Assembly (NCBI RefSeq): GCF_901411515.1
Contig: NZ_CABDUX010000002.1
Location: 930,001-994,000, forward strand
Origin: Raoultibacter phocaeensis
GTDB lineage: Bacteria; Actinomycetota; Coriobacteriia; Coriobacteriales; Eggerthellaceae
DNA: 64,000 bases
Direction: 5' to 3'
The notes beneath the pieces were generated by a model, which saw only the letters and a program-made list of their open reading frames with translations, was not told the origin of the DNA and searched no databases. Numbering within the stretch: position 1 is the stretch's first letter; the number at the start of each line of letters is the position of its first letter. Position numbers and translations under genes: made by a program. Below are positions 26,032 through 26,246 of the stretch, piece after piece.

Positions 26032-26098
26032 ACCGCAGATTCGCATGCAGTGCATCGCGCAGCAGCGGTGCACTTAAAATCCGCGCGTTTCCCATCTT

Positions 26099-26246
26099 TT
26101 TCAGTACAAAATGACGGTTGCGAACGGTTATTTCATACTTCCGTGATCGCTAAAATAGAGAAGATACAGAACGTACCTGATCACAAAATAGACCATATTT
26201 TATATTCTTGAAAAAGATCATTCGCAACCGTCATTTTGTACTGAAA
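26099..26246. repeat. 148-bp AT-rich element bounded by perfect 26-bp inverted repeats
   Basis: Left arm 26099-26124 begins TTTCAGTACAAAATGACGG. Right arm 26221-26246 is its exact reverse complement over all 26 bases. The 96-bp interior is strongly AT-rich in an otherwise high-GC window and contains no open frame of note. No flanking target duplication is obvious. It may be a miniature (non-autonomous) transposon, a protein-binding site or a long RNA hairpin; the function is not established. Confidence 0.8.

Follow-up and report, generated by a model that had tools for sequence, protein, structure and literature searches.

The DNA analysed here, referred to as the window, is a stretch of 64,000 nucleotides from Raoultibacter phocaeensis (genome G000). 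Between a MiaB/MtaB-like gene and phoH it carries an AT-rich element of 148 bp, without a gene of its own, whose two 26-bp arms are exact reverse complements and enclose 96 bp (Table 1). A preliminary description of the locus had listed the size, the AT-rich composition, the exact arms and the lack of a gene, and the sequence confirmed them. Imperfect pairing of the arms reaches 35 bp at 89%. The core of the element from AGTAC to GTACT, 140 bp in length, has a G + C content of 35%, against 55-68% in the neighbouring 148-bp windows. When inverted pairs with loops of 45-140 bp were scanned, this element was the only one scoring at least 18 in the 64-kb window, and no pair with such a score and loop was found in 50 shuffled nuclease loci. 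In relatives, conserved symmetry extends for ~25-35 bp beyond the arms; the unit there is thus nearer 200 bp.

Table 1. Features of the hairpin element and its putative partner gene
Feature	Position	Strand	Remark
Hairpin element, copy E1	26099..26246	.	One of seven copies in the genome; A1-clade arms
Left arm	26099..26124	+	26 bp; imperfect pairing inward to 26133
Right arm	26221..26246	-	Exact reverse complement of left arm; imperfect pairing from 26212
Central motif GATCAGG	26176..26182	-	Family form GAYCWGG; minus-strand reading
AAAATC	26076..26081	+	17 bp outside left arm; may correspond to the outer motif of relatives, tentative
P0001, DUF559-type (PD-(D/E)XK-like) nuclease gene	G000:C1:573166-574131		Outside the window

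The preliminary description had called for a search for further copies in the host genome. Six were found by blastn at 70-77% identity, and the element is one of a dispersed, non-autonomous-looking family of seven. A degenerate arm pattern allowing up to three mismatches recovered 14 arms in the genome, all forming the seven pairs, with no solo arm. The AGTAC-to-GTACT length is constant at 139-142 bp across the seven copies. Six of them lie between called open reading frames. The exception, L037, overlaps a frame of 196 aa whose coding signal is low; if this frame is disregarded, the copy is flanked by convergent genes. The gene gaps holding the copies are tandem, convergent and divergent, which leaves a regulatory role upstream of phoH, part of the alternative offered earlier, without support. 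An eighth hairpin, at C1:104974, has a different arm (TTGGCAAAGATTTGCG...). This second arm type, TTGGCA(A/G)AGATTT..., occurs at G000:C1:104974 (L192) and at G001:C3:302242 (L193), that is, in both species of the genus, and no partner gene was identified for it.

After the copies had been oriented, identity between them was 83-98% in the arms but only 38-69% in the interiors, so the arms have been maintained; the perfect arms are not the mark of recent mobility for which they had been taken. No longer element or IS with ends of the E1 type was found in the genome. Target-site duplications, also sought, gave no consistent offset: the signal in G000 is a conserved AT motif, and old insertions could have lost the duplication. 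As for empty sites in relatives, two copies of genome G097 have no counterpart in the corresponding gaps of three sister species (genus g32), but the intergenic DNA of G095, G096 and G032 is too rearranged for a clean junction. The exact arm had no match in IMG/VR, nor did the whole element in plasmids and phages. In the congener G001 the mtaB-phoH interval has no element and is occupied by an open reading frame of 916 aa, probably that of a surface protein; six paired elements with an arm of their own, TGCATGAGATTTACGATTGTGA, are found elsewhere in that genome. The finding that was to speak against mobility, a single copy at the same locus in all relatives, was not obtained. The proposal of a miniature transposon stands as far as the element is dispersed, non-autonomous-looking, copied elsewhere and absent from this interval of the congener; it is neither recent nor, as far as searched, derived from an IS. 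The partner gene identified next to one copy (see below) is of the DUF559 nuclease type and no classical transposase.

A covariance model built from the seven G000 copies found members in 20 of the 138 genomes of the family, with up to 21 matches listed per genome, some of which are one place on both strands. The hairpin subfamilies are genome-specific, and positions differ between species of one genus. Of the nine genomes with at least three copies, five have arms that match better within a copy than between copies (permutation test); in the other four (G000, G117, G095 and G129) the difference fell short of significance. The excess of within-copy matching spans most of the arm.

Several other repeats were noted in these genomes. 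A ~55-bp repeat (around CTATGTCAATCTTGGTTTAACATAG), seen at L131:4686-4740 and in many places in G105, G107, G096 and G032, is present many times per genome and adjoins class-B hairpins; it is possibly a REP-like family. In G117 (loci L103-L108 and L141-L153) the hairpins lie within longer GC-rich repeats of several families, hundreds of bases in length. Several TTTCACGTGAAA palindromes, which we take to resemble parS, share gaps with the G097 hairpins (L131 and its G095/G096 counterparts). Single unpaired arm-like 23-mers in Paraburkholderia (L032:713-735 and L033:1338-1360), located in one homologous gap of two species, were set aside as probable chance matches.

Copy E3 of the element is located 40 bp upstream of a 322-aa gene, P0001, and tblastn against all fetched loci placed homologues of P0001 beside elements in nine genomes (G000, G001, G112, G107, G118, G117, G095, G129 and G146). 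The C-terminal part of the protein weakly matches DUF559 and REase_MTES_1575; two of six homologues passed the Pfam cut-off and P0001 fell just below it. Of 48 homologues, 45-47 retain each of the residues E177, D222, E233, D235 and H240, and the partner protein carries the E...D...E-x-D...H signature of a DUF559/PD-(D/E)XK-like nuclease. The ~200 N-terminal residues matched no Pfam or NCBIfam model, the linked gene matched DUF559 and no HuH model, and a sequence search of PDB gave only weak matches, to an endonuclease-like protein and PvuRts1I. The nuclease family is present in 109 of the 138 genomes and was not found in IMG/VR or phages. One relative at 30% identity occurs in Collinsella, where no hairpin reached the threshold. 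At two loci of G095 (L123 and L137), the nuclease match begins at residue 80-81 and runs into a hairpin, as if the element had replaced the gene start.

Inverted pairs were then sought around 50 nuclease genes, 48 loci of which were usable. A hairpin was present nearby in 35 of the 48 (upstream in 28, downstream in 18, on both sides in 11), and 13 had none at the threshold used. Thirteen upstream hairpins end 21-51 bp before the start codon, distances that are approximate since the start is implied by the P0001 match. The nuclease loci held 48 hairpins in 190 kb, against four in 86 kb of control loci, two of these four being one locus fetched twice. Both hairpins share arms in 10 of the 11 two-sided loci, with a mean arm score of 22 against -1 between paralogues of one genome, whose arms differ. 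The more similar two of the proteins are, the more similar are their arms (Mantel r = 0.46; 0 of 5000 permutations, maximum 0.26). Gene and arm are paired both by position and by linked evolution. The correlation shows linked evolution rather than binding, because a gene and its adjoining hairpin descending together would give the same result. Dispersed copies share the cognate arms for the A1 clade, and most nuclease paralogues are without demonstrated dispersed copies.

An iterative weight matrix was used to fit the register of the arms to a common outer end, and the geometry of the elements was then compared. Their spans have maxima at 119-120, 130-131, 141-142, 151-152 and 162-163 bp. For 81 distinct combinations of genome, arm and length, Rayleigh R was 0.82 at 10.5 bp and high from 10 to 11 bp; the nominal p of ~4e-24 is overstated, as related subfamilies share lengths and the combinations are not independent. 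A central GAYCWGG was found in 128 of 170 loops, some of which are repeat fetches, against 22.5 expected after shuffling. Its usual distances are 49-50, 60-61 or 70-71 bp to the outer end on one side and 63 or 74 bp to that on the other, so that each side varies by whole helical turns and the motif stays in phase with the two arms. If the hairpin were transcribed, an excess of G.U on one strand would be expected; among arm mismatches read on the motif strand, G.T (51) and A.C (41) revealed no strand bias (p = 0.35). The length steps, the phase of the motif and the unbiased mismatches together point to a helical constraint on duplex DNA, the ends of which would be drawn together by a protein, rather than to RNA.

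We consider it probable that the element is a non-autonomous duplex-DNA hairpin, the cognate site of a DUF559-type nuclease encoded in trans, and that this nuclease recognises and probably disperses the hairpins in the manner of a REPtron. The protein, bound to both arms, would draw them together on one face of the helix, perhaps aided by a factor at the central GAYCWGG, and would cut there. The hairpin would then be moved or copied to other intergenic sites, the nuclease gene staying put. Cleavage and movement are what we infer here. The arms, on this proposal, would be the recognition sequence of the nuclease and would for that reason change together with it, and the interior could drift as long as spacing and motif were preserved.

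The main rival, which we think unlikely, is a DNA-looping regulon, in which the DUF559 protein acts as a repressor or in an architectural role: bound to both arms, it would loop the DNA, control its own gene and mark other sites, moving nothing. It would account for the upstream hairpins that often end so close to a start codon, and repressor loops, too, would be expected to show helical phasing (discussed in PMC3464196). However, a large number of hairpins are found downstream of the gene or in convergent gaps, their positions vary between species of one genus, and the residues conserved in the protein are those of a nuclease. We give far less credence to a structured RNA (a small RNA, a leader or an antitoxin-like RNA) made from the hairpin, in spite of a very stable fold (z -8.6), paired changes between the arms and the frequent position of hairpins where the nuclease gene probably has its 5′ leader. 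Against it stand the 10.5-bp phasing of length and motif, the absence of a G.U-type strand bias and the occurrence of hairpins in either orientation relative to genes; moreover, Rfam gave no family at gathering score, the one match being to a miRNA model, below threshold and due to the hairpin shape.

An inverted pair of tyrosine-recombinase (Xer/dif-like) sites flipping or excising the short interior is, in our judgement, quite improbable. The differences between G097 arms are indeed concentrated in a short block at the centre, which for the most part agrees between the two arms of a copy, with a block mismatch of CGTT/TATG at L120; and the 16-bp repeat GATAAGCGCGGTTATG used in megabase inversions of Eggerthella lenta (PMC13174815) resembles class-B arms such as CAAAATCACGGTTATG at 12 of 16 positions by eye. 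Yet the orientation of the interior relative to the flanks is the same in orthologous pairs compared by eye, matching within a copy covers most of the arm and not just an overlap, and the linked gene encodes a DUF559 nuclease and not a recombinase. A search for the host dif, for comparison with the arms, gave no clear site. We find it no more credible than the RNA that the element is an ordinary MITE derived from a DDE-type IS, the transposase copy having been lost or lying elsewhere. Inverted ends, an AT-rich interior and several intergenic copies would fit it, and a helical length constraint is possible in short transposons (Goryshin 1994, cited in PMC3464196), but the genome has no IS bearing these ends, no target duplication was found, and the arms are linked to DUF559 genes across the family.

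The nuclease-hairpin partnership that we favour shares features with several known systems. Classical MITEs, such as Correia elements, have inverted ends of ~26 bp, measure roughly 100-160 bp and are intergenic, and the element is alike in all three respects. It differs from them in that no IS with its ends and no target duplication was found, and in that the arms co-change with a nuclease gene. The closest design, by analogy, appears to be REPIN/RAYT: an inverted pair forming a hairpin, intergenic, without its own gene and of genome-specific sequence, with a cognate gene flanked by the same repeat and co-evolution of protein and repeat (PMC3116915, PMC8266576), although the gene here is not a RAYT. 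The enzyme is DUF559/PD-(D/E)XK-like and not a HuH (Y1) transposase, the length is quantised as duplex DNA, copies number 7 to ~20 rather than hundreds, and one genome has several paralogue-specific codes. No GTAG-type tetranucleotide beside the palindrome, the tag of REPINs, was constant in the aligned copies. The internal eliminated sequences of Paramecium are likewise short AT-rich DNA with a ~10-bp length periodicity, read as loop formation in the excision complex (PMC3464196); those are eukaryotic, bounded by TA, handled by a piggyBac-type enzyme and shown to be excised, whereas excision here is inferred. DUF559/REase_MTES_1575 proteins resemble the cognate protein in its C-terminal region, a weak match, and differ from it in the ~200 N-terminal residues, which lie outside any Pfam or NCBIfam model.

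In a search of largely freely accessible literature we found nothing tying DUF559 to palindromic repeats, and the system looks like an apparently undescribed partnership of protein and repeat. More tentatively, as a possibility that we rate below the partnership itself, the hairpins may constitute a new class of mobile DNA in bacteria: a PD-(D/E)XK (DUF559) nuclease, resident at single loci and with many paralogue-specific arm codes per genome, would excise or copy them as duplex DNA in phase with the helix. The function of DUF559 is given as unknown in Pfam; if each DUF559 gene here has its own hairpin code, these genomes would offer a natural table of proteins and their sites and a direct hypothesis for the role of the protein. 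If the explanation is true, it suggests that the REPIN/RAYT lifestyle, in which a population of very small repeats accompanies an enzyme that stays in residence, evolved anew around an enzyme of unrelated fold, and the palindromic gaps left blank by annotation in this bacterial family would be explained.
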